Assembly (NCBI GenBank): GCA_937927515.1
Contig: CALBDO010000006.1
Location: forward strand, 1-64,000
Length of the DNA stretch: 64,000 nt
Direction of reading: 5' to 3'
DNA from: Candidatus Kapaibacterium sp.
Lineage (GTDB): Bacteria > Bacteroidota > Ignavibacteria > Kapaibacteriales > UBA2268
Part shown: piece by piece, positions 4,479-35,487 of the stretch
Layout: every line of letters starts with the position of its first letter
Position numbering within the stretch: position 1 is the stretch's first letter
Notes under the pieces: model-generated
Database searches by the model: none
What the model was told of the DNA's origin: nothing
What the model saw: only the letters and a program-made list of their open reading frames with translations
Translations under genes and position numbers: made by a program

Positions 4479-7400
4479 TTATTCGACATCTATATGAGTT
4501 TTAATTGGTAATCTAACAATAAAAGTACTACCTTTCCCTAATTCACTTTGAACAGATATGCTTCCACCCATAATTTCTGTAAATTTTTTTGCAAGGGTGA
4601 GCCCTAAACCTTGTCCTTCGAACTCTCTGGACAAACCTTGGCTTACTTGGTAAAATTCCTTCCAGATTAAATCTAATTTATCCTCGGGTATTCCAATTCC
4701 AGTATCCGATACGATAAGTTCAACATATTCATCACTTCCATCCTCTCGAAGCACTCTCAACTGAGTATTTATACTTCCTTCTCTTGTAAACTTAAAAGCG
4801 TTGTGAACAAGGGCGTGAACAATCGTTCGAACCAAAAATTCATCAAGTTTTACTACTAAGTAGTCCGTTTCGAGATTCAAAACTACTTCAATGTTTTTGT
4901 GTGAGAAAAATTCTTTCGTTGTTTGAACAATCTCTCTTATTGTGTCTACAATATCAAATTCTCTAAGTTGGACTTTAAAAAGACCAGTCTCTAATTTTGA
5001 ATAATCGATTATTAAATCTACAGTGTTTAAAAGTCTTTTTCCACTCTTATATATTTGGTCTGCAATTTCTTGAATTTCCTGTTCTTTTTGTTCGCTTTTC
5101 AACCACTGCGCCCAACCCAATATACCTGTCAGTGGCGTTCGGAATTCATGGCTGAAATTCAAAAGAAGATAATTTTTTAGGGAATTTAATTCTTCTGCTT
5201 TTTCTTTGGATTCTTGCAGTTGTTGGAGATATTCTTTTTCTTGAGTAATATCAGTAATTAAACCAACATAATTTATAATTTGACCAGCTTCATCATATAA
5301 TGGAAATATTTTTGCTTTTATCCATTTGTTAAGATATTTTAAATATAGCTCTATTACTTGGGGACCACATGTATTAACTTTTTGAAACAAGTTGGCAAAA
5401 TATTTATCATTAACTATATCTGAATGAATGGATTGAATACTTTTACCAATGAAATTTGCTTTTTGGATTTCTAAAATTTGTTCTAAACTATTATTTATGT
5501 AATTAATTTTGCCATCTGTGTCAAGTATGAACACACCAGTAGGTGTTTGCTCGATGATTTTTTCAAATACTCTTATGCTTTTTTCTAATTCCTTCAGTTT
5601 CGTGATATCCCTTCCGATGCCGACAATCCCAATAATTTCATCTTTGTCATTATAAATAGGCGAAATTTTTGTTTGAAAATAATAAGTATTTTCACCAACT
5701 GTTTTAGACCATTCATAAGTTATGGTTTCACCCTGCAAGCATCGGTTCTGCATTTCAATATGGATTTTGCCGTCTTCTTCACCTAATATTTCCGTGGCAG
5801 TCTTGCCAAGAAAATCTTCCTCTCTTAATCCGAAATTTCCCAGCCATTTACCATACAATCCATTATGCCGATGTTCTGTGTCGAGGGTAAATACCATATC
5901 GTCCATCGAAGAAATCAAAGTTCGAAATTTCTCTTCGCTTTCCTTTATTGCTTTTTCGATTTCTATTCTTTCTGTCAAGTCGATTGCAACACCAATGTAG
6001 CCAATGACATTTCCCTTCTCCTCAATTATTGAATTTGTGGTCAACTGTATTTTAAATTTTCTTCCATATTTATCTTTATTCCATAGTTCTCCTCTCCAAG
6101 TTTGATTTTTGGATAATTTATCGAAAATCTCTTTGTCGACATTTGGGTCGAGGGATTCTTCGGTACGAAGTATTGAAGGTGTCTGACCTTTAATCTCCTC
6201 CAAAGTGTAACCATAGAGTTGGACAAAAGCTTTATTTACATAAATAAATTTATTTGATAAATCATTTATCGAGACAGCCTCTCCAATAGAATCCAGTGCT
6301 TTGCCTAATTTAGTGATTTCATATAATGCTCGCTTACTTTCAGAAATATCTCTTACAATTGCTACAAGGAGTGACTTCTTTCCATAAATTATTTTGTTCA
6401 AAGATACTTCGCACTCAAACTCGGTACCATCAAGTTTTTTATGCATCCATTCGAAACGTAGTTCTTCGCCACGATATGCACGGGTGATATAATCCAAAGC
6501 CTTTTTTCTCGATGGTATACCATCTGGTTGAAACTTTGGGGAAAATTCGTAAGGTGGCTTGCCAATGATATCACTTCGTTCACATTTAAACATTTTCAGT
6601 GCAGAAAGATTGCAATCGAGAAAAACATCTCCAGACATTATAAATATTGCATCAGCAGAATTTTCGAACAATGCTCGGTATTTCTTTTCGCTTTCTTTAA
6701 GTTTTTCTTCAATTTCTTTCCTTGAAGTAATATCGGTAATATATCCCTCGATTGCAATTACTTTTCCTTTTTCATCGTATATACCTCGGCCCTGCTCGAA
6801 AACCCATCGAATTTCGCCATTTTTTGTAATAATTGGATATTCATCTTGGAAAACTTCTTTTTTGTTGAGTACGATTTGATACTTCACCCAGATTCGTTCT
6901 TGGTGGTCTTTGTGTATTAAGTCATTAAAGGATAGTACCTTATTTCCTACGACTTCTTCGGGTTTGTACCCAGTAATCTTGTAGAAGTTTTCGGAGAGAT
7001 ATTCCATGGTCCAGTATCTATCGTTGCGACAGCGGTATACAAATCCTGGCAGATTGCTTACAAGTGTGTAATAGAACCTTTCGAGCTCTCGTGTTTTTTT
7101 TTCGATTTGGTCTTTCTCTAAAATTTTTTCTCGCAAAGTAAAAGTTAAAAGTATATTTTCGATGAATTCTTGTAACAAGGAAATCTCCTCTTCGCAGTAG
7201 ATTTCGTGCGTGTGGTAAATCAATAAGAAATATCCTAAAAATTCTTTCTTATTTTTAATGGGAAGGGCAACGGAACACAATTTGATATTATTTATTGTTT
7301 CTTCGAACTTTATGATATTCTTTTCGTTGGCATTTGTATTTTCAAAAGTGATAATTTTGACATCGCTTCCATATTTTAAGAGTAATTCTGCTTTGAATTC

Positions 7401-14013: not shown

Positions 14014-14331
14014 TTATACGCAACCGGTTGGTTTTGCCAAGCCGGCAACTTTGCAAGCCCCCTTTGCTGGTCCGGACGGAAAAAGGTCGTAGATTTGCTT
14101 CAAAGTAAATCCAGTCTCTTTGCAAAGTTTACGAATCATCGGTGCTATTCCGTATTGCTTGTAGTAGTCGCGTAGATAATTGATAACCTTCCAATGGTCG
14201 GGTGTCAATTCTGTAACTCCTTCTGTCGACGCCAAGGCGAGGGCTACTCTTTCATTCCATTCTTCAGGGTTTGCCATAAAGCCGTCTTCATCGACTTCGA
14301 TTTTGATTTCATTCCATTCGAATATTGGCAT
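14014..14331 (-). CDS. dsrC: DsrC, sulfur-carrier substrate protein
   Basis: DsrC carries sulfite-derived sulfur as a trisulfide between DsrAB and DsrMK. The 105-residue protein has the typical C-terminal arm: GACKVAG holds the first cysteine and the chain ends in PTGCV with the second cysteine next to last. It is therefore a true redox-competent DsrC rather than a TusE-like or single-cysteine RspA-type protein. A GAGG ribosome site precedes the ATG. It sits between dsrL and dsrM and has its own 3' hairpin, which would suit the high DsrC levels known in other sulfate reducers. Confidence 0.97.
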   Translation of the reverse strand: MPIFEWNEIKIEVDEDGFMANPEEWNERVALALASTEGVTELTPDHWKVINYLRDYYKQYGIAPMIRKLCKETGFTLKQIYDLFPSGPAKGACKVAGLAKPTGCV

Positions 14332-27684: not shown

Positions 27685-28350
27685 TTAGCATCCTTCGCGT
27701 TTTGGCTTTTTTGTTGCTTCAGGTTTTGGCAAAGCAACAGATTGTTTAGGTAACTGAGTTGGTGTTTGCTTGAATTCCATCTTTTCAGTTTGGATGGTTT
27801 TACCCTCGCTAACGAATATTGGAGAACCACCAAAATAATTTGAAACTTGTATGATTTTTTCACTCTTTGCTTTGTCCACGTCTTTCAAATCGAGAGGGAT
27901 TTTTGGATGAAGAATCTCGTTTATCCAGCCGTCGAACCCATCTTTCAATACGTAAACATTTTTGTAGTTCATAGCTTTTAAAGCAAGCCAAGCATTTAAA
28001 CTTTTGGTATCATCATCAGAAAAAACAACTATTTGTTGATTCCTTCCGATTACATTTTCAAGTAAGTCGCCGACAGTAAGATTGATTGCATTCGGAATCG
28101 TTCCTTTTTCATATTCAGTGGGGCTGCGCAAATCGACCAACAAAAAAGACTCCGTCCCTTTTATAATTTTTTCTGCTAATTCAAAAGGGGTAATAAATTT
28201 GGTTGTATTTTTGGACTCGAAAAGAAGATTCTTCGGGTCTACTTTAACGAACGAGGTCTTAGCTGGGTCCTTCGTGAAAAGTGCAATTATGCCTAAGAGG
28301 ATAGCCAGTAAGCCAAGCTTTTTGTTTGTAGACATTTTATTCAGCTTCAT
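27685..28350 (-). CDS. Membrane-anchored rhodanese-fold protein without the catalytic cysteine
   Basis: Start ATG 28350 is chosen for its GGGAGAGGAA ribosome site; it overlaps the upstream yeeE gene by 14 bp. The 221-residue protein has an N-terminal membrane anchor (LGLLAILLGIIALF after a basic start) and a rhodanese domain (about 45-150) with LLVDLRSPTEYEKGTIPNAIN and VYVLKDGFDGW. Where active rhodaneses have the persulfide cysteine loop (VxYCxxGxRS) this one reads VVFSDDDTKS, so the cysteine is replaced by serine. The only cysteine in the protein is its last residue, at the end of a Pro/Lys-rich flexible tail (KKPKREGC). Topology suggests the domain is outside the cytoplasm. A sulfur-relay or scaffold role beside the YeeE transporters is inference. 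Confidence 0.75.
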   Translation of the reverse strand: MKLNKMSTNKKLGLLAILLGIIALFTKDPAKTSFVKVDPKNLLFESKNTTKFITPFELAEKIIKGTESFLLVDLRSPTEYEKGTIPNAINLTVGDLLENVIGRNQQIVVFSDDDTKSLNAWLALKAMNYKNVYVLKDGFDGWINEILHPKIPLDLKDVDKAKSEKIIQVSNYFGGSPIFVSEGKTIQTEKMEFKQTPTQLPKQSVALPKPEATKKPKREGC

Positions 28351-28951
28351 TTCCTCTCCCCAAAAATTTTGAGTTAAATTTCTTTTCCAGATAGGTTGCA
28401 CCAGAAAAACCAGCGACAGCAATCAGTACAACAGCAAAAACAGCCACACCATATGGAATGTGTAAGAAACCATGAAGTGTTTGTTTTCCCATAGCTGTTG
28501 AATTGGCAAAATTAGAAATTAATGGATAGAGCTCACCATAAATGAAAATCCCGATAAATACACCAATCAAAAACAAAAAGCCATCAATCCTCCCCGTAGA
28601 AGCTGAAACAACAGATGTGCCAGGGCAATATCCTCCAAGAATAAAACCAAATCCCAAGATAAATCCACCGACAATCTGGGGTATTAAAAATGTCGGTGTG
28701 AAGTAAATTAAGTTTATGTCCAGGAGTCCAAATGCGCCGAGGAAGAAAACTCCAAGCATTGCAGTTATGATGGCTGTGAACATAACTTTAAATACCCTCA
28801 TATCGTAGAAGTAAAACTGTGCAGCGAGCTTGTCTGCAGAGCCAAAACCAGCCCTTTCGAGAAAAAATCCAAATGCAATACCAATAAGGAATGCAATGAT
28901 TAAACTAAATTCTTCGCCAAAATAACCAAATTTGTAAAATGGTGCTATCAT
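28337..28951 (-). CDS. YeeE/YedE-family sulfur transporter, second half-size subunit
   Basis: A membrane protein of about 204 residues with about six helices. It carries the family glycine/cysteine motif GGYCPGTSVVSA, the kind of cysteine that in thiosulfate-transporting YeeE proteins contacts the substrate. It starts at ATG 28951 with an AGGAGG site and overlaps the previous yeeE-like gene by an ATGA. The two small genes together correspond to one full-length two-repeat YeeE, so a heterodimeric channel for thiosulfate or another sulfur species is likely. A C-terminal soluble end (KKFNSKFLGRGNEAE) overlaps the start of the rhodanese-like gene. Confidence 0.85.
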   Translation of the reverse strand: MIAPFYKFGYFGEEFSLIIAFLIGIAFGFFLERAGFGSADKLAAQFYFYDMRVFKVMFTAIITAMLGVFFLGAFGLLDINLIYFTPTFLIPQIVGGFILGFGFILGGYCPGTSVVSASTGRIDGFLFLIGVFIGIFIYGELYPLISNFANSTAMGKQTLHGFLHIPYGVAVFAVVLIAVAGFSGATYLEKKFNSKFLGRGNEAE

Positions 28952-29517
28952 AACCAAAACCTCCTAAATAAATATGCAATAAGATATCCTCCAGCAAATA
29001 CAGATAGCATAAAAGCCCAGCTTCCTAAATTTAGCAAGGCTCCGCCAGTAAGTGCTTGCCCACTTGTGCAGCCGCCAGCCAATTTTGCTCCAAAGCCCAT
29101 CATAATCCCGCCAAGAACAGCAAATATCATTCTTGTTGAATTAGTGATTCTTGGTCCTTTGACAATTTTGAACTTTACTCTATTTGCAAAAATTCCAGAA
29201 ATGAAACCACCAAACAATACTCCCAGTACCTCGAAAACTAACCAATCTTTTAGCGGGTTTTCATTAGTTAAGTAATTTTGATAAAATTCGTTGCTTTGGG
29301 CATGGTTCGGTGCAATCTTTGCAACACCTGTTGCGACTATTGTAGATATAGCACCGGAAGCTCCGAGACCGCGACCCATAAGAACAAATGCAGATAGTAG
29401 GACCAAACCAAGTCCAATTCCAGCGATGTAAGGGTTCCAATAAGGCTGCTCTGGAAATTTTTCTTTGTGAAATGCTTTAGTGCTTTCTTCGCTTCTAAAT
29501 TGATTTTCTTCGACCAT
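28948..29517 (-). CDS. YeeE/YedE-family sulfur transporter, first half-size subunit
   Basis: A 189-residue membrane protein with a soluble N-terminal stretch of about 30 residues and about five helices. The motif GGCTSGQALTGGAL is the conserved cysteine site of YeeE/YedE (PmpA/TsuA-like) transporters, matching GGYCPGTS in the neighbour. It follows the NrfD-like subunit by 13 bp and is translationally coupled (ATGA) to the second half. No TusA-like partner, common near YeeE genes, is present here; the defective rhodanese may take its place. Confidence 0.85.
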   Translation of the reverse strand: MVEENQFRSEESTKAFHKEKFPEQPYWNPYIAGIGLGLVLLSAFVLMGRGLGASGAISTIVATGVAKIAPNHAQSNEFYQNYLTNENPLKDWLVFEVLGVLFGGFISGIFANRVKFKIVKGPRITNSTRMIFAVLGGIMMGFGAKLAGGCTSGQALTGGALLNLGSWAFMLSVFAGGYLIAYLFRRFWL

Positions 29518-29530
29518 TTTACACCTTCAT

Positions 29531-30484
29531 TTAAAAATTAATAAAAACATTTCTGGGCCATTGGCTATACTGACCAGCATAAACAACGATGAACCTAAGA
29601 ATTAAACCACCAAATAAAACCATTATTGGGGCAATGTTCGTGTGTGGAATTTTGTTGTTTACGGAAAAAATTTGTATGATGAATGGAATGATTATTCCGA
29701 TAAAAACAACAAAAACCCAAAATGAAGCCGCGAAAGGTCCCGATAGGATTAATCTTGCAGCATCGATGTGTACCTGGCTCGAAGATACAAAGCCAATAAT
29801 CATCAAGATAATTATAATAATCTCGGCTATTAAAAAACCATTGTCGGCTTTTGCAAGAAGATGCCGTTCCTCTGGGTCTTTACCAACAAGATGAACGAGC
29901 GCTGCTGCGCTTGATAGCCCAGAAGTAATGAACAATGTCCAGAGCATTGGGCTGTTCCAAGCCGGTCGAGCGGAAAAGTTACTTAGCAATATGGCAGTAT
30001 AAGCCCCAAGCAAGCCTCCAAAAACCATACTCAATGCTCCAATTAATTTAGTTATAAAAGGATTTCTTTGTATTTTGAGGGATATTTCATTAAGTTTGGG
30101 TAATTTTATGCCAACATTCTCGGGTAATCGTAAAGTTATATTTAATAATAGAATTGGATAAATAATAATAAGTATCCAAGCACCCCAAGACATTGGAGAT
30201 TTCCACATAAAGTTTAAATATAGATTCCAAACGTAGAGCTTGTGTTCCAAGTCGAGAAATAAAAGAAACATCCCTAATGAAATCGCAAAGATGCCAATGA
30301 TTGGAATTCGATAGCAAGAACATAAGGTATTTTTTGTTCTTCCAGTGAGGATAAAATAGCCAGAGATTAACATCATTCCACCGACCAATCCTCCAAGAAA
30401 AAGATAAACAGGAATTTCCCAGCCCCAAATACTTAGTGTAGGGTCGATTAAATTATTGTGCCTTGTTATAACTACTTCGTTCAT
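29531..30484 (-). CDS. NrfD/PsrC-type quinone-reactive membrane subunit
   Basis: A 317-residue polytopic membrane protein of the NrfD/PsrC family, with eight or so helices starting at WGWEIPVYLFLGGLVGGMMLISG. These subunits exchange electrons with menaquinol and have no heme. It is encoded 10 bp after the ferredoxin subunit, completing a three-subunit Psr/Phs-type enzyme. Its early glycine-rich helix and the acidic residue in LFLDLEHKLYVW are typical of the family. Confidence 0.88.
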   Translation of the reverse strand: MNEVVITRHNNLIDPTLSIWGWEIPVYLFLGGLVGGMMLISGYFILTGRTKNTLCSCYRIPIIGIFAISLGMFLLFLDLEHKLYVWNLYLNFMWKSPMSWGAWILIIIYPILLLNITLRLPENVGIKLPKLNEISLKIQRNPFITKLIGALSMVFGGLLGAYTAILLSNFSARPAWNSPMLWTLFITSGLSSAAALVHLVGKDPEERHLLAKADNGFLIAEIIIIILMIIGFVSSSQVHIDAARLILSGPFAASFWVFVVFIGIIIPFIIQIFSVNNKIPHTNIAPIMVLFGGLILRFIVVYAGQYSQWPRNVFINF

Positions 30485-30494
30485 AGCTTCCTCC

Positions 30495-31034
30495 TTAAAT
30501 TAAATAATAAATCTGAGGTTTAGTACCGGTTTCTGGATTTAAAACACGGTATTTTCTTGAATTAAGTAATTTCTTTACTTCGCTATTTGGGTCTTCTAAA
30601 TCTCCAAAATACATGCAATGAGTTGGACAAGAGGCAACACATGCTGGGTCGAGTCCTTGGACAATCCTATGCTCACAGAATGTGCATTTACTTACATATC
30701 CATCTGGATGGACAAAACGAGCATCGTACGGGCAAGCAGCTATACAAGCTTTACACCCAATGCATTTTTGGTAATCTACCAAAACAATTCCGCCAATATC
30801 GGAAATGTGGCTGGCACCAGTAGGACATGTGTAAACACAAGGAGGATTGTCGCAATGATTACATCTTTCTGAACGAATTTCCATATGCAACGTCGGAAAT
30901 TTTCCTATTGTCTCGTAGGTTATCCAATCTCGGTTGAAGCCCTCTGGGACATTATTCTCTGTCTTGCATGCAACTACACAGTCCATGCAACCAACACATT
31001 TCGTAGTATCTATAACCATTGCATATCTTGCCAT
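30495..31034 (-). CDS. Four-cluster ferredoxin subunit (PsrB/PhsB-like)
   Basis: A 179-residue electron-transfer subunit with the sixteen cysteines needed for four [4Fe-4S] clusters: CVGCMDCVVAC, CNHCDNPPCVYTC, CIGCKACIAAC and CTFCEHRI...CVASCPTHC. There is no signal peptide, as is usual when the subunit is co-exported with a Tat-bearing catalytic partner. It lies two bases after psrA and 10 bp before the nrfD-like gene. Confidence 0.92.
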   Translation of the reverse strand: MARYAMVIDTTKCVGCMDCVVACKTENNVPEGFNRDWITYETIGKFPTLHMEIRSERCNHCDNPPCVYTCPTGASHISDIGGIVLVDYQKCIGCKACIAACPYDARFVHPDGYVSKCTFCEHRIVQGLDPACVASCPTHCMYFGDLEDPNSEVKKLLNSRKYRVLNPETGTKPQIYYLI

Positions 31035-31036
31035 AA

Positions 31037-33238
31037 TTACACCTTTTCTATTGTCACGAAATTATTATTCATACCAGTACCGCCCATAATTGGGTCGATG
31101 TCATAACGAGTTATAAGTTGAGCATCACTTGCTCCTTTTAGGTATGCTCTTCTAAGTCTGCGAGATGTATGTCCAAAACCATGATACATATAAACACAAT
31201 CCGGTCTTATCCTTTGGGTAACGCGCGCTTTCACTTTGTTGCTTACTACTCCATCTTGGTTTTTCAACACAATATAGTCACCATTTTTAATTTCGAGTGT
31301 CTCTGCAACGTCGGAGTTAATCCAAACTTCGTTTTCTGCAACCATATCCATTAAAATAGGGTTTGATTGAGTCATACTGAAGGTGTGTACAGGTGTTCGA
31401 CCAAAGAGCAAGCGGAAATAACCAGGCGGTGGTTCAGGAGGTCTTTCGTATGTTGGAAATGGTGAAAACCCTTTTGCGGCAAGCTGGGTGGAGTATAATT
31501 CAATCTTGCCAGTATTTGTGTAAGGAAATTCTAAGTTCAATCCATCATCTACATAGATTGGTTGTTCTTCGCCAATTATAATGCCATCGGTTTTAAGTTG
31601 TTCATAGGACAATCCGGCAGATTCAATGCGATATCGCAAATATTCTTCGATGTGTTTCCAAGGATAAAATTTTTCCAAGCCAAGTTTTATTGCCAACTCT
31701 CTAGCAATCCACCAGCCATCGCGTTGGTCGTGAGGAGGAGCAACTACTGGTTGGCGTATTCCAACAAATGGTACACGAAAAGAGCTGATATTGAGCTCGT
31801 CGTATCTTTCAAGATAAACGGTCTCGGGAAGAACAACGTCTGCCCACATTGCAATTTCGCTTGGTATGACATCAATTACCAGCAAAAAGTCCAGTTTGTT
31901 TATAGCTTCGATTGTTTCTTTTTGATTTGGCAGTGTTTGGATAAGATTGGTGCCATAAACAATCCAAGCCTTTATTGGATAAGGCTCGCCAGTGATGGTA
32001 GCGGAACGAATACCTTGGGTAAGACCTTCTTCTTCACCGGCAAAAGGATATTTGCTATTAGGATTGTATACGACTTCGTAGTCCATCTCTGGATAGGGTG
32101 GGTAGGGATACTTAGGAATCTCCATTTTGACGGGTTTAAAAAATGCTCCCTTGCGATTCCAATTGCCTAAAAGTGCATTAATTATAGTAATTGCTCTTAT
32201 TCTTTGCACATCGTTGCCGTACCAATTGACATGTCGACCAGGATGCACAAATGATGCGGGCTTGTACCTTGCAAGCTCTCGAATAGTCTCTCGAATTAAA
32301 TTAGGTTCAATTCCAGTCTCGACAAAAGCCCACTCGGGAGTAAATGGCTCTATGTATTCTTTCAATTGTTCAAAGCCAAATGTGTACTTGTCGACGAAAT
32401 CTCTGTCGTAAAGTTTTTCTTGAATAAGAACATTAATCCAAGCCAAAAGTAATGCTGTATCTGTTCCCGGTTTTATTGGTAGATAATACTTTGCTTTACT
32501 TGCAGCAATAGAAAATCGAGGGTCTACTACTATAATCGTTGCTCCTTTTTCAATTGCTTCGGCAAATTCTTGAACTTGGCTGTTGTGCATGTTCTCGCCA
32601 ATGTGAGAGCCAATCAGAGCGAAACATTTAGAGTTTTTTATATCCGTGCGCTCTGGTGAACCTATAATTTCGCCATAAGTTAGTTCAAAAGCAACCTCTC
32701 TTGGCCCACGACACTGCGCAAAAGATGGGGCAGAGAAATTTTTAATTCCAAACGCTCTTAAAGTATGTTTTAGAAAAGCACCACCAGGACCGTGACTGAA
32801 TACGGCAATCGCTTGGGGACCATATTTATCCTTTATTTCAACAAGTTTTTGGGAGGTGTAGTTTAATGCTTCATCCCAAGTTGTGACTTTCCACTCCTCA
32901 CCTCCACGGTTGGAGATACGAACCAAAGGAGCCTGAAGTCTGTCGGGGTCGTAGTGTTGCCCAACACCACCGTTGCCTCGGGGGCAGAGGCGTCCTCGGC
33001 TTAGCGGGTCTATAGGATTTCCCTCTAATTTCCAAAGCTTACCATCTTTTACGTAACCAATTAGGCCACATTTCCAAAAACAGATAGAACAATAAGATGG
33101 AATTTTCACTACACCTTTGTTCTTTTCATTTGCAGACAGAGTGGATTGAATCATCTTTGTTCCACCTACGAGCAAACCTGCGCCGGCAAAAGTTGTTCCG
33201 CTAATTTGTAAAAATTTCCTTCTTGTTAGTCGTTCCAT
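31037..33238 (-). CDS. Molybdopterin oxidoreductase, polysulfide/thiosulfate reductase type
   Basis: The 733-residue catalytic subunit starts with a Tat signal (LTRRKFLQISG then a hydrophobic stretch), so the enzyme acts in the periplasm. SYCSICFWKCG and GRLCPRGNGG bind an FeS cluster, a cysteine in SFAQCRGPREVAF is the probable Mo ligand, and later segments bind two MGD cofactors (YGTNLIQTLPN and FGRTPVHTFSMTQ). The subunit set A-B-NrfD with neighbouring sulfur transporters points to polysulfide, thiosulfate or tetrathionate chemistry; the exact substrate and direction cannot be read. A cytoplasmic SoeA-type sulfite dehydrogenase is disfavoured by the Tat signal. Confidence 0.88.
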   Translation of the reverse strand: MERLTRRKFLQISGTTFAGAGLLVGGTKMIQSTLSANEKNKGVVKIPSYCSICFWKCGLIGYVKDGKLWKLEGNPIDPLSRGRLCPRGNGGVGQHYDPDRLQAPLVRISNRGGEEWKVTTWDEALNYTSQKLVEIKDKYGPQAIAVFSHGPGGAFLKHTLRAFGIKNFSAPSFAQCRGPREVAFELTYGEIIGSPERTDIKNSKCFALIGSHIGENMHNSQVQEFAEAIEKGATIIVVDPRFSIAASKAKYYLPIKPGTDTALLLAWINVLIQEKLYDRDFVDKYTFGFEQLKEYIEPFTPEWAFVETGIEPNLIRETIRELARYKPASFVHPGRHVNWYGNDVQRIRAITIINALLGNWNRKGAFFKPVKMEIPKYPYPPYPEMDYEVVYNPNSKYPFAGEEEGLTQGIRSATITGEPYPIKAWIVYGTNLIQTLPNQKETIEAINKLDFLLVIDVIPSEIAMWADVVLPETVYLERYDELNISSFRVPFVGIRQPVVAPPHDQRDGWWIARELAIKLGLEKFYPWKHIEEYLRYRIESAGLSYEQLKTDGIIIGEEQPIYVDDGLNLEFPYTNTGKIELYSTQLAAKGFSPFPTYERPPEPPPGYFRLLFGRTPVHTFSMTQSNPILMDMVAENEVWINSDVAETLEIKNGDYIVLKNQDGVVSNKVKARVTQRIRPDCVYMYHGFGHTSRRLRRAYLKGASDAQLITRYDIDPIMGGTGMNNNFVTIEKV

Positions 33239-33245
33239 ATTTCGC

Positions 33246-33668
33246 TCACATTTTTTTTATGAATTCCTTTATATCAGAACAGTTAGTAAAGTTTGTATAA
33301 ACATAACAGGTCTTGCAATCCATTTTAGCACAAACATTTGTTTTGTGTTCAATCGACCAGCAAGGAACTCCTATACTTTTATATGCAGGGCATGCGATTC
33401 TTTCTTTTTCCGGACAATTGATTATCTTCCAACAAGGGACCATAGATAACATTGTTTTAATCGAGGCGATTGTAAACTGCTTTTTTCTTATCGCCTCCAA
33501 GATACATTGAATTCTTTCGATGTCGGCTTTTGAGTACAATCTATTCTTTTGGTTAACCCCTCGATTTGTTAAGATTAAACCCTCGCGTTCGTACATTCTC
33601 AATGTATGTACGCTTACACCCAGAAGCCTCGAAACAACTCCTATTGGATAAATTGGTTCATTTTCCAT
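33246..33668 (-). CDS. MerR-family regulator with a cysteine-rich 'two-CW'-like tail
   Basis: Residues 1-75 form a MerR winged helix (PIYPIGVVSRLLGVSVHTLRM with a following YEREGL turn). Residues 80-140 hold ten cysteines in a repeated pattern (PCWKIINC, ACPAYKS, PCWSIEH, then CAKMDCKTCYVY and CSDIKEF), resembling the two-CW domain thought to bind metal or FeS. It lies 7 bp upstream of psrA in the same direction, so it probably regulates its own operon. Sensing of redox state, reactive sulfur or metal is inference. The 196-bp upstream gap (33669-33864) contains A/T-rich inverted repeats but no site I can assign. Confidence 0.85.
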   Translation of the reverse strand: MENEPIYPIGVVSRLLGVSVHTLRMYEREGLILTNRGVNQKNRLYSKADIERIQCILEAIRKKQFTIASIKTMLSMVPCWKIINCPEKERIACPAYKSIGVPCWSIEHKTNVCAKMDCKTCYVYTNFTNCSDIKEFIKKM

Positions 33669-33864: not shown

Positions 33865-35487
33865 TTATAATTCTACTACGTAATGTTTATTAGAGGTGAC
33901 ATTGAATATTGGTTCAAGTGTTTTAATGAAATAATTTGTACCAAACAAAAAAAGCATAGTCGCCAACGCAAAAGTTCTTTCTTGTAATGAACCATTCGGG
34001 TAGAGAAAAGTGTTTAATTTGATTAAATCTTTATTGTCGTGAAGAATTTTTCTTCTCTCAGTCGAATATATTTTGTTGATATATGCATCAATTGATTTTT
34101 TGCTTTTTTTGATATGCTTTTCGCCAACAAAATTTAACGATTTGTCCAAACGAGCACCTATTTCCCTAAGTGATTCAAAATCGAAAGCAATGTTTTTTTC
34201 GATGTTTTCGACCTGGCTTTGTAGAGATAAATTTCGAAAGCGATGGTATAATTCTTCCTCAAAGTTACTTTTGTCCTTTAGAAAGTAAGACAATGTTTTA
34301 GTGTTGACCAAATCAGAATATTCTGCTGGGATTACAGTGATGGAATGTCGGGGCACAATACCCGGCATAATAACATCATACCATTTGTACAACTCTTTAA
34401 GTTGGGCGAAGAAAACGATTTCGCTTGGGCTTTGAATAGAGACAATAGTCGGAAGGATAAAATCTTGGCAAATTGGTCTTAGAAGGACATTTGGACTGAA
34501 CTTATCGGTATTTTTTTCGAAAAATTCTACAATTTCTTTTTCAGTGATTTCAATCCCATCCAAATTAAATGTTTTTTTAAAGAGATTCAATTCAAGCCTG
34601 ACCCTTTTGTCCTTGGTGTGGTAAAATATATTCAAGAATGAGTTTTTTGATTTTACTCCGATACCCTTCGATTCTAAAAGTTTGTTAGCCTTTTCAATAA
34701 TCTTTGAACTTGCTCCAAAAGTTTCGATTTCTTTAATTAATATCTTTGCAAATGAATTGTGAGCTCGACATTCCGATGAGATGATGAATAGTAATCCATA
34801 ATCCTTTAGTAAGTAATTCAGGATTTCTACAAAAGTTTTTGTCAATGAAGTTTCATTCTTATATAAATTTATCAAAAAGGTTGATGTTTCTAAGCTCGTC
34901 TCGATGTATTCATTGGAGTGAATATGTATTTCAAGGAAATTTATTAGATTCTCGGGGATACGAAAATTTGAAATTGAACTCCTCCAATTAGTAATTACTT
35001 CGGTATTTATTGGAATATTAACAATGTCATAATTCTTGGTAAGCAAAGTGATTTGGAACGACTTTAAGCAGTTATGCTCATTGTCCTCAATCCAAATTAT
35101 TGGAACGAAGTTGAAGTATGGAAATCTAATGGAAAGTTTCCTTGCTATGAAAATTGAAGTCAATGTTTTATATAATACTGAAAGAGGACCACCAAGAAAA
35201 AAAGGATTTATTGAAGCTACAACAACTAAAGTGTTATCTTTCGACATTAGCTCAAGATTTGCCTTTTGATTTTTAGATAATTCGATATTTGTGCTGATTT
35301 CCTTTACTAACTTCATCATTTCATCTCTGTTCTTATAAGATTTTAATTTTTGCTCAATAATCTTTTCTGTTTGAAGTAGTTCATCGAAGTAAAGAAATCG
35401 TTCACGAATGAACCCTTTTTTACTCAAGAATTCGCAAAAAAAACGCGACAAACCAGGGAGGAGTTCAAAATCAATTTCTCTTATCAT
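33865..35487 (-). CDS. bshC: BshC-like bacillithiol biosynthesis enzyme (cysteine-adding)
   Basis: BshC is thought to add cysteine to GlcN-malate in the last step of bacillithiol synthesis. The 540-residue protein has the general BshC layout: an N-terminal helical part, FFLGGPLSVLYKTLTSIFIARKLS in place of the usual GQQPGLFGGPxYTxYK, FVPIIWIEDNEHN in place of FVPVFWIAxEDHD, and a coiled-coil C-terminal part (about 400-480). The key motifs have drifted, so activity is less sure than the family call. It is transcribed away from the flavodoxin-fold gene. Chlorobi are known to make an N-methylated bacillithiol, which fits the proposed lineage. Confidence 0.75.
   Translation of the reverse strand: MIREIDFELLPGLSRFFCEFLSKKGFIRERFLYFDELLQTEKIIEQKLKSYKNRDEMMKLVKEISTNIELSKNQKANLELMSKDNTLVVVASINPFFLGGPLSVLYKTLTSIFIARKLSIRFPYFNFVPIIWIEDNEHNCLKSFQITLLTKNYDIVNIPINTEVITNWRSSISNFRIPENLINFLEIHIHSNEYIETSLETSTFLINLYKNETSLTKTFVEILNYLLKDYGLLFIISSECRAHNSFAKILIKEIETFGASSKIIEKANKLLESKGIGVKSKNSFLNIFYHTKDKRVRLELNLFKKTFNLDGIEITEKEIVEFFEKNTDKFSPNVLLRPICQDFILPTIVSIQSPSEIVFFAQLKELYKWYDVIMPGIVPRHSITVIPAEYSDLVNTKTLSYFLKDKSNFEEELYHRFRNLSLQSQVENIEKNIAFDFESLREIGARLDKSLNFVGEKHIKKSKKSIDAYINKIYSTERRKILHDNKDLIKLNTFLYPNGSLQERTFALATMLFLFGTNYFIKTLEPIFNVTSNKHYVVEL

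Follow-up and report, generated by a model that had tools for sequence, protein, structure and literature searches.

What does a protein of rhodanese fold do once the cysteine of its active-site loop is gone and its only thiol is the last residue of the chain? The question is raised by the last gene of a same-strand run in the window, the whole stretch of 64,000 nucleotides of DNA analysed here, and the following parts of this gene were delimited.

27685..28350, minus strand: rhodanese-fold protein with terminal cysteine, 221 amino acids, stop included (open reading frame and translation; Pfam PF00581, 5.6e-18; AlphaFold2 mean pLDDT 84)
28276..28329, minus strand: predicted N-terminal membrane helix, residues 8-25 (AlphaFold2 helix; positive charges mostly on its N-terminal side across homologues)
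28000..28029, minus strand: former active-site loop VVFSDDDTKS, with S111 in place of the catalytic cysteine (alignment with 33 non-linked rhodaneses, 32 of which have cysteine there)
27688..27819, minus strand: Pro/Lys-rich tail, residues 178-221 (per-residue confidence about 50-60 from residue 191)
27688..27690, minus strand: codon for Cys221, the last residue (every one of the 32 rows of the homologue alignment ends in Gly-Cys)

The reading frame starts with ATG at 28350, stops at the codon 27687-27685 on the minus strand and yields a protein with the C-terminal sequence KKPKREGC. Rhodanese (PF00581, E = 5.6e-18, residues 58-144) is its sole Pfam domain, and the best PDB matches of the AlphaFold2 model are rhodanese-like structures. 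The place of the catalytic loop cysteine of active rhodaneses is taken by Ser111, and the single cysteine of the protein is residue 221, its last. Serine for cysteine in the loop together with a lone terminal cysteine in 221 residues is what the original prediction had read from the DNA, and translation, Pfam and alignment bear it out.

An initial set of 60 related genomes contained a standalone orthologue in 10, the window's own genome being one of these, and all 10 orthologues end in Gly-Cys. The set was widened by searching 395 genomes of the phylum with a profile and by a contig scan (58 loci from 81 stretches), homologues being gathered by similarity to the family's own profile. Record titles from the contig scan name Ignavibacteriae, Kapabacteria, Calditrichaeota, Acidobacteria/Vicinamibacteria, Eisenbacteria, Bacteroidetes and others, and those of metagenome bins may be wrong. 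The 179 matching open reading frames gave 126 distinct C-terminal sequences, 89 of them linked to YeeE (a YeeE half within 1,500 bases on the same strand) and 37 not. Among the linked sequences, 80 end in GC and one in QC (locus L084), four run off their contigs (L145, L149, L150, L151), two are broken, by an in-frame stop in L106 and a frameshift in L053, with the letters KKKK-(K/R)-EGC further on in both, and two are other nearby rhodanese genes (L015 and item 12 of L084). Terminal cysteine was absent from 33 non-linked sequences and present in four, namely L147 and two paralogues of L058, all at contig ends, and item 8 of L119 at the edge of the fetched stretch.

Several trivial origins of the terminal cysteine were considered. 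Only four of 950 other called genes of at least 120 amino acids in loci L063-L160 end in cysteine and one in Gly-Cys, and chance was rejected on the latter count. A sequencing error at the last codon, which the original prediction had named as a way in which it might fail, is ruled out by the Gly-Cys ends of 80 of the 89 linked sequences. A ubiquitin-like carrier with a C-terminal GG was likewise rejected, as the fold is that of a rhodanese and many members have one glycine only.

For comparison, 85 distinct sequences with terminal cysteine (the window's included) were set against 33 controls that are neither YeeE-linked nor end in cysteine, so that the absence of terminal cysteine from the controls holds by construction; eight rows (four contig-cut, two broken, two non-orthologous) were kept apart from both as group B. 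The loop cysteine is absent from 80 of the 85 and present in 32 of the 33. The loop position is held by S in 56, G in 13, A in 10, C in five and D in one of the terminal-cysteine sequences, and by C in 32 and K in one of the controls. In a FastTree tree of 122 domain sequences, the split that best separates the groups (support 0.975) places all 85 terminal-cysteine sequences on one side, with none of the 32 controls included, and three orthologues of group B (two broken, one cut) fall on the same side. From the alignment (loop cysteine lost in 80/85 against 1/33) and the single clade it is evident that loss of the loop cysteine and gain of the terminal one are co-conserved, as had been proposed for checking. 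The two traits are not strictly exclusive, since five of the 85 members carry both cysteines (loops YCED, YCEN and VCYD); all five lack the Arg-bearing loop pattern common to most controls, and four of them form one nested clade (support 0.996), in which the loop cysteine is, on the tree, best read as one reversal. No orthologue was seen that keeps the loop cysteine in the same context and lacks the terminal one; nearest to such a case is an MBL-rhodanese gene (L015/L174), which lies outside the clade and beside a more distant YeeE pair. The window protein thus shares fold and sequence family with the single-domain sulfurtransferases of PF00581, but it has neither the loop cysteine nor the Arg-bearing loop pattern of most controls, and its candidate reactive residue is C-terminal. 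Two peculiarities of locus L084 were also seen: its dead rhodanese ends in FQC rather than GC, and at 4964-6610 it encodes a three-domain rhodanese upstream of YeeE, without a cysteine tail, whose matched domain falls among the dead rhodaneses in the FastTree tree.

The genes directly upstream of the rhodanese gene encode the two parts of a YeeE-type transporter.

28337..28951, minus strand: YeeE1, the N-terminal half of a transporter of YeeE/TsuA type, with one additional helix predicted (Sulf_transp, PF04143, positions 1-147)
28948..29517, minus strand: YeeE2, C-terminal transporter half (PF04143 positions 164-309)

The YeeE1 gene shares 14 bases with the start of the rhodanese gene and 4 bases with YeeE2. 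Profiles of the halves align to structures of Spirochaeta thermophila YeeE (StYeeE), YeeE1 to residues 5-108 of PDB 6LEO (E 3e-4) and YeeE2 to residues 235-329 of PDB 8J4C (E 2e-8). The only cysteine present in every row is C109 in YeeE1 (24/24) and C150 in YeeE2 (23/23). The coupling to YeeE genes that had been predicted is upheld, whereas the two supposed transporters are, by the PF04143 and PDB alignments, the N- and C-terminal halves of one. A reverse search with YeeE1 against the same 60 genomes (E 1e-5 or better) found 31 places. The 22 places with E below 1e-40, in 21 genomes, either adjoin a standalone terminal-cysteine gene (10) or are fused with it in one frame (12), and all 22 partners, standalone or fused, end in GC. 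Of two inspected among the nine weaker places, G005 is an operon of the octaheme type truncated at a contig end, and G028 has another YeeE pair next to an MBL-rhodanese gene that lacks terminal cysteine. Judged from the gene order of the window and the 22 of 22 close YeeE1 places, the constant partner of the terminal-cysteine protein is the split YeeE, with a coupling that is near-universal. Elsewhere in the genome a second, more distant YeeE-like match was observed (G000:C15:46832-47329, open frame of 400 amino acids). A role connected with selenium was set low, the best NCBIfam match of YeeE1 being seleno_YedE with 36.5 bits against a cut-off of 200.

Split transporters of this type are known. 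YeeE/TsuA with YeeD/TsuB, the split PmpA/PmpB and YedE1E2 belong to the same transporter family, with two halves and one conserved cysteine each. The PmpB/PmpA split of a YeeE-like transporter is described in PMC11582611, whose section on these half-transporters names no rhodanese-type subunit, and YeeE halves may therefore work without a rhodanese protein.

Further upstream on the same strand, the run is completed by a regulator and a molybdopterin reductase, so that the gene order reads MerR, PsrA-like, PsrB, NrfD/PsrC, YeeE2, YeeE1 and, last, the rhodanese gene.

29531..30484, minus strand: NrfD/PsrC-type membrane subunit (PF03916, 1.2e-36)
30495..31034, minus strand: PsrB-type iron-sulfur subunit
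31037..33238, minus strand: PsrA/PhsA-type molybdopterin subunit with the twin-arginine start RRKFLQ (PF00384)
33246..33668, minus strand: MerR-family regulator with 9 cysteines (PF13411, 2.6e-16)
33865-35487: bshC, bacillithiol synthesis, immediately ahead of the MerR-psr-YeeE run (Pfam 204 bits; NCBIfam 263.4, narrowly below the cut-off of 265.8)

The best NCBIfam match of the PsrA-like subunit is PhsA with 508 bits, below the cut-off of 694. In genome G002 a gene of the same length as bshC lies at the same place (L063 13891-15513). A plasmid search gave no match.

Upstream genes were then counted at 77 distinct loci, which remained from 95 after removal of 8 duplicates and 10 loci without a called terminal-cysteine gene. 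Psr-type genes were found at 54, an octaheme cytochrome and/or cytochrome b at 10 and an ordinary rhodanese at five, and eight (L119 among them) with upstream sequence of 1,366 bases or less were unclassifiable. No YeeE was called upstream at four of the 54 Psr loci (L082, L085, L092, L122): L092 reaches the edge of its contig, and for the other three the linkage is given by stop-to-stop frames. In locus L097 the octaheme protein belongs to the TIGR04315 tetrathionate reductase family (575 bits, cut-off 375) and has a leader-like start, and the cytochrome b matches a thiosulfate-reductase cytochrome b best, with a score under the cut-off. The octaheme-type loci L097-L102 encode an octaheme cytochrome and a cytochrome b together with YeeE2, which was not called in L102, and with a fusion of YeeE1 and the dead rhodanese ending in GGC; no paper on octaheme tetrathionate reductase together with YedE was found among the matches listed. 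The loop cysteine is retained in all five upstream ordinary rhodaneses, within YCHIG in four of them and within THCGG in that of L084. Each has a leader-like start, and in L088 the gene is divided between two called open reading frames. Coupling to a Tat-exported sulfur reductase, also part of the prediction, accordingly describes the gene order of the window but not a constant partner, as its place is taken elsewhere by the octaheme cytochrome or the ordinary rhodanese. Because the psr reductase is replaced in other lineages, the protein is better described as a partner of YeeE than as a shuttle between reductase and transporter.

The regulator gene suggests a different role, in which YeeE and the terminal-cysteine protein would act as a sensor reporting external sulfane sulfur to the cysteine-rich MerR protein, in the way that SoxT1B serves SoxR. 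Of the 54 Psr-type loci, 31 have a MerR relative upstream, and a signalling role is reported for SoxT1B, a YeeE-like protein (PMC11582611). Yet YeeE and the terminal cysteine are kept where no MerR relative was found upstream, in five of five loci with an ordinary rhodanese and in eight of ten octaheme loci (four of these eight being stretches of less than 5 kb), and we regard this role as improbable.

The part of the protein that bears the cysteine was examined in an AlphaFold2 model of the window protein, made with 31 homologues. At a mean pLDDT of 84 for the whole model, the tail from about residue 191 has a confidence of 48-60, and the C-terminal tail is predicted to be disordered. Throughout the 32 rows the Gly-Cys end is invariant, Pro196, Lys215, Lys217 and Glu219 are nearly invariant, and 38-46 amino acids follow the FGG motif, so that by prediction (tail confidence and the Gly-Cys end of the 32 rows) the protein has the flexible C-terminal arm with conserved cysteine of a swinging-arm protein. 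The nearly invariant Pro196 stands midway along a tail that varies elsewhere; in many homologues it is part of a PKL/PKI-x-x-P-like motif, and this region may possibly be a docking motif. Two operons contain two adjacent dead-rhodanese genes with near-identical GGC tails:

L090, 6628-7915: paired dead-rhodanese genes, both ending in PEGGC
L092, 7-1314: paired dead-rhodanese genes, both ending in KVEVEEGGC

Since the paralogues in each pair carry nearly the same tail, the tail seems to be a working module. A purely structural cysteine, which would join two copies of the protein by a disulfide or bind it permanently to YeeE, with the rhodanese fold as no more than an assembly factor, would agree with the single cysteine per protein, which permits one intermolecular bond, and with a second YeeE1 cysteine that lies just past the pore motif in 12 of 24 rows. 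However, half of the YeeE1 rows are without this second cysteine, and a long, predicted-disordered tail with an invariant free Gly-Cys end is an unusual site for a structural bond; this is the least likely of the alternatives considered here.

On which side of the membrane the arm lies depends on the N-terminal helix. The 15 residues that precede the helix have a mean net charge of +2.9, against +0.1 for those that follow it (84 of 85 sequences), and Lys/Arg are more frequent before than after it in 60, equal in 15 and fewer in nine, the 15 pre-helix residues having been taken from stop-to-stop frames that may include some ahead of the true start. Three of 32 rows have no helix by the hydropathy cut-off. 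In a model of a natural YeeE1-rhodanese fusion (L141; mean pLDDT 79, pTM 0.51) the YeeE1 helices are followed by a helix at residues 212-230 and then by the rhodanese; a Foldseek search with this model returned no YeeE structure among the best 50 matches listed. The charge distribution, the helix order of the fusion and the exported look of the partner enzymes favour a periplasmic domain, and a membrane anchor with the rhodanese domain outside is the better-supported topology by prediction, in line with the anchored, periplasm-facing protein first envisaged.

The opposite orientation gives the main rival, which is the mirror image of the carrier reading developed below: the protein would be a cytoplasmic stand-in for YeeD/TusA, its terminal cysteine receiving the sulfur where it leaves YeeE on the inner side. 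Thiosulfate uptake through YeeE is reported to require YeeD, a member of the TusA family whose cysteine is a fourth one at the cytoplasmic side of YeeE, and Cys22 of StYeeE is shown beside YeeD Cys17 at the inner side (PMC11073785). At the YeeE1 position aligned with this Cys22, 23 of 24 rows have Gly and the remaining one has Ser. TusA gave no match in the window's genome (98.3% complete), nor did DsrE; across the 60 related genomes searched, TusA was matched in two, one of them over cut-off; the 36 genomes that make up the window's family, 21 of them with the YeeE1-rhodanese pair, gave no TusA match. As YeeD is reported to be essential elsewhere and TusA was not detected here, the YeeE of the window's family probably works with another partner, and the dead rhodanese could be just that. 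The protein is itself no member of the YeeD/TsuB group, which is marked by the TusA fold and a CPxP motif: Rhodanese is its only Pfam match, and with its only cysteine at the last residue it has no CPxP. Against the cytoplasmic position stand the charge distribution and the helix count of the fusion, which put the domain outside, and the inspected partner enzymes, which look exported (PsrA by its twin-arginine start, the octaheme cytochrome of L097 and the five rhodaneses by their leader-like starts). A cytoplasmic protein is thus unlikely, and still the most probable of the alternatives. That the terminal cysteine fills the place of Cys22 from outside was set low, Cys22 lying beside YeeD Cys17 at the inner side (PMC11073785).

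Which molecule would take up sulfur on the cytoplasmic side is a guess; DsrC and bacillithiol are candidates with genes nearby. Next to the cassette, positions 592-26819 of the window hold dissimilatory sulfate-reduction genes, with dsrAB and dsrC found by family search and presumably sat and aprBA among them.

14014-14331: DsrC, ending in TGCV (family search)

The presence of this true DsrC in the window leaves the swinging-arm likeness to DsrC that had been suggested for the rhodanese protein as an analogy, and not as kinship: a match to the DsrC/TusE family (PF04358) was not obtained, PF00581 alone being found. DsrC has a C-terminal cysteine arm, and SoxY bears its cysteine on a C-terminal GGCGG arm. 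In both, the cysteine on a flexible C-terminal arm carries sulfur, and it is in this way of working only that they resemble the window protein; their folds are other ones, and here the chain ends with the cysteine itself and the protein has a membrane anchor. Neither the carrier fold nor the terminal GGCGG of SoxY was found, as Rhodanese is the only Pfam match and the chain ends in REGC. Sud of Wolinella, a periplasmic rhodanese that supplies Psr and uses its loop cysteine, is likewise a rhodanese-fold protein associated with a Psr-type reductase, but the window protein lacks the loop cysteine and has YeeE as its constant partner. Compared with YeeE-YeeD, the linked partner here is a membrane-anchored dead rhodanese, and TusA was found neither in the genome nor in the family. 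The DsbA-like Hden_0679, encoded beside SoxT1A, has a cysteine pair at the very C-terminus and is considered a helper that releases sulfur for a YeeE-like transporter (PMC11582611); it is, however, thioredoxin-like with CxxC motifs, in contrast to a rhodanese with a single cysteine.

The locus itself was described in 2019 in Ca. Thermonerobacter thiotrophicus, where a psrABC-DUF395-rhodanese locus has the same order (MerR, psrABC, two sulfur-transport domains, rhodanese) near a dsr operon and the gene is called a "rhodanese-related sulfurtransferase"; similar psrABC genes were noted in Melioribacter roseus and Ignavibacterium album (PMC6338057). In the available passages of PMC6338057 no mention of the missing loop cysteine or of the terminal cysteine was found, nor did the open-licence PMC literature yield a report of such a relocation; further papers in the field are PMC10812762, PMC13047784, PMC12998232 and PMC9516567.

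Taken together, we consider the protein to be a periplasmic tethered sulfur carrier that presents sulfane sulfur to the split YeeE importer through its tail cysteine, with a probability of roughly 0.6; the location outside the membrane, the sulfur chemistry, the docking to YeeE and the direction of transfer are what we infer. The N-terminal helix would anchor the protein in the membrane, and the rhodanese fold, under this model no longer an enzyme, may serve as a docking body, the cysteine having been transferred from the loop to the tip of a tail about 40 residues long. Cys221 would take up sulfane sulfur, as persulfide or S-thiosulfonate, made by the periplasmic enzyme encoded upstream, be it a Psr/Phs-type reductase, an octaheme cytochrome of the tetrathionate-reductase family or an ordinary rhodanese. 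The arm would then swing to the mouth of the YeeE1-YeeE2 pore and hand the sulfur to the pore cysteines C109 of YeeE1 and C150 of YeeE2, which would pass it on. Import is assumed as the direction because it is the known role of YeeE. In PMC11582611, the delivery of sulfur to transporters of the YeeE kind is treated as a model and no more.

The finding offers a defined and testable single-cysteine candidate for the hand-over of sulfur to YeeE in a widespread bacterial family, and the annotation as "sulfurtransferase" is probably misleading. Rhodaneses whose catalytic cysteine has moved to the chain end may, as we tentatively propose, constitute a new class of sulfur carrier, a tethered thiol that feeds covalently bound sulfane sulfur into the YeeE pore from the periplasm. 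If this is true, the cysteine relay would be shifted outward relative to TsuA-TsuB, with an outer cysteine gained, the inner Cys22 lost and the TusA partner missing in the window's family, and one transport module would have been plugged onto three different periplasmic sulfur enzymes.
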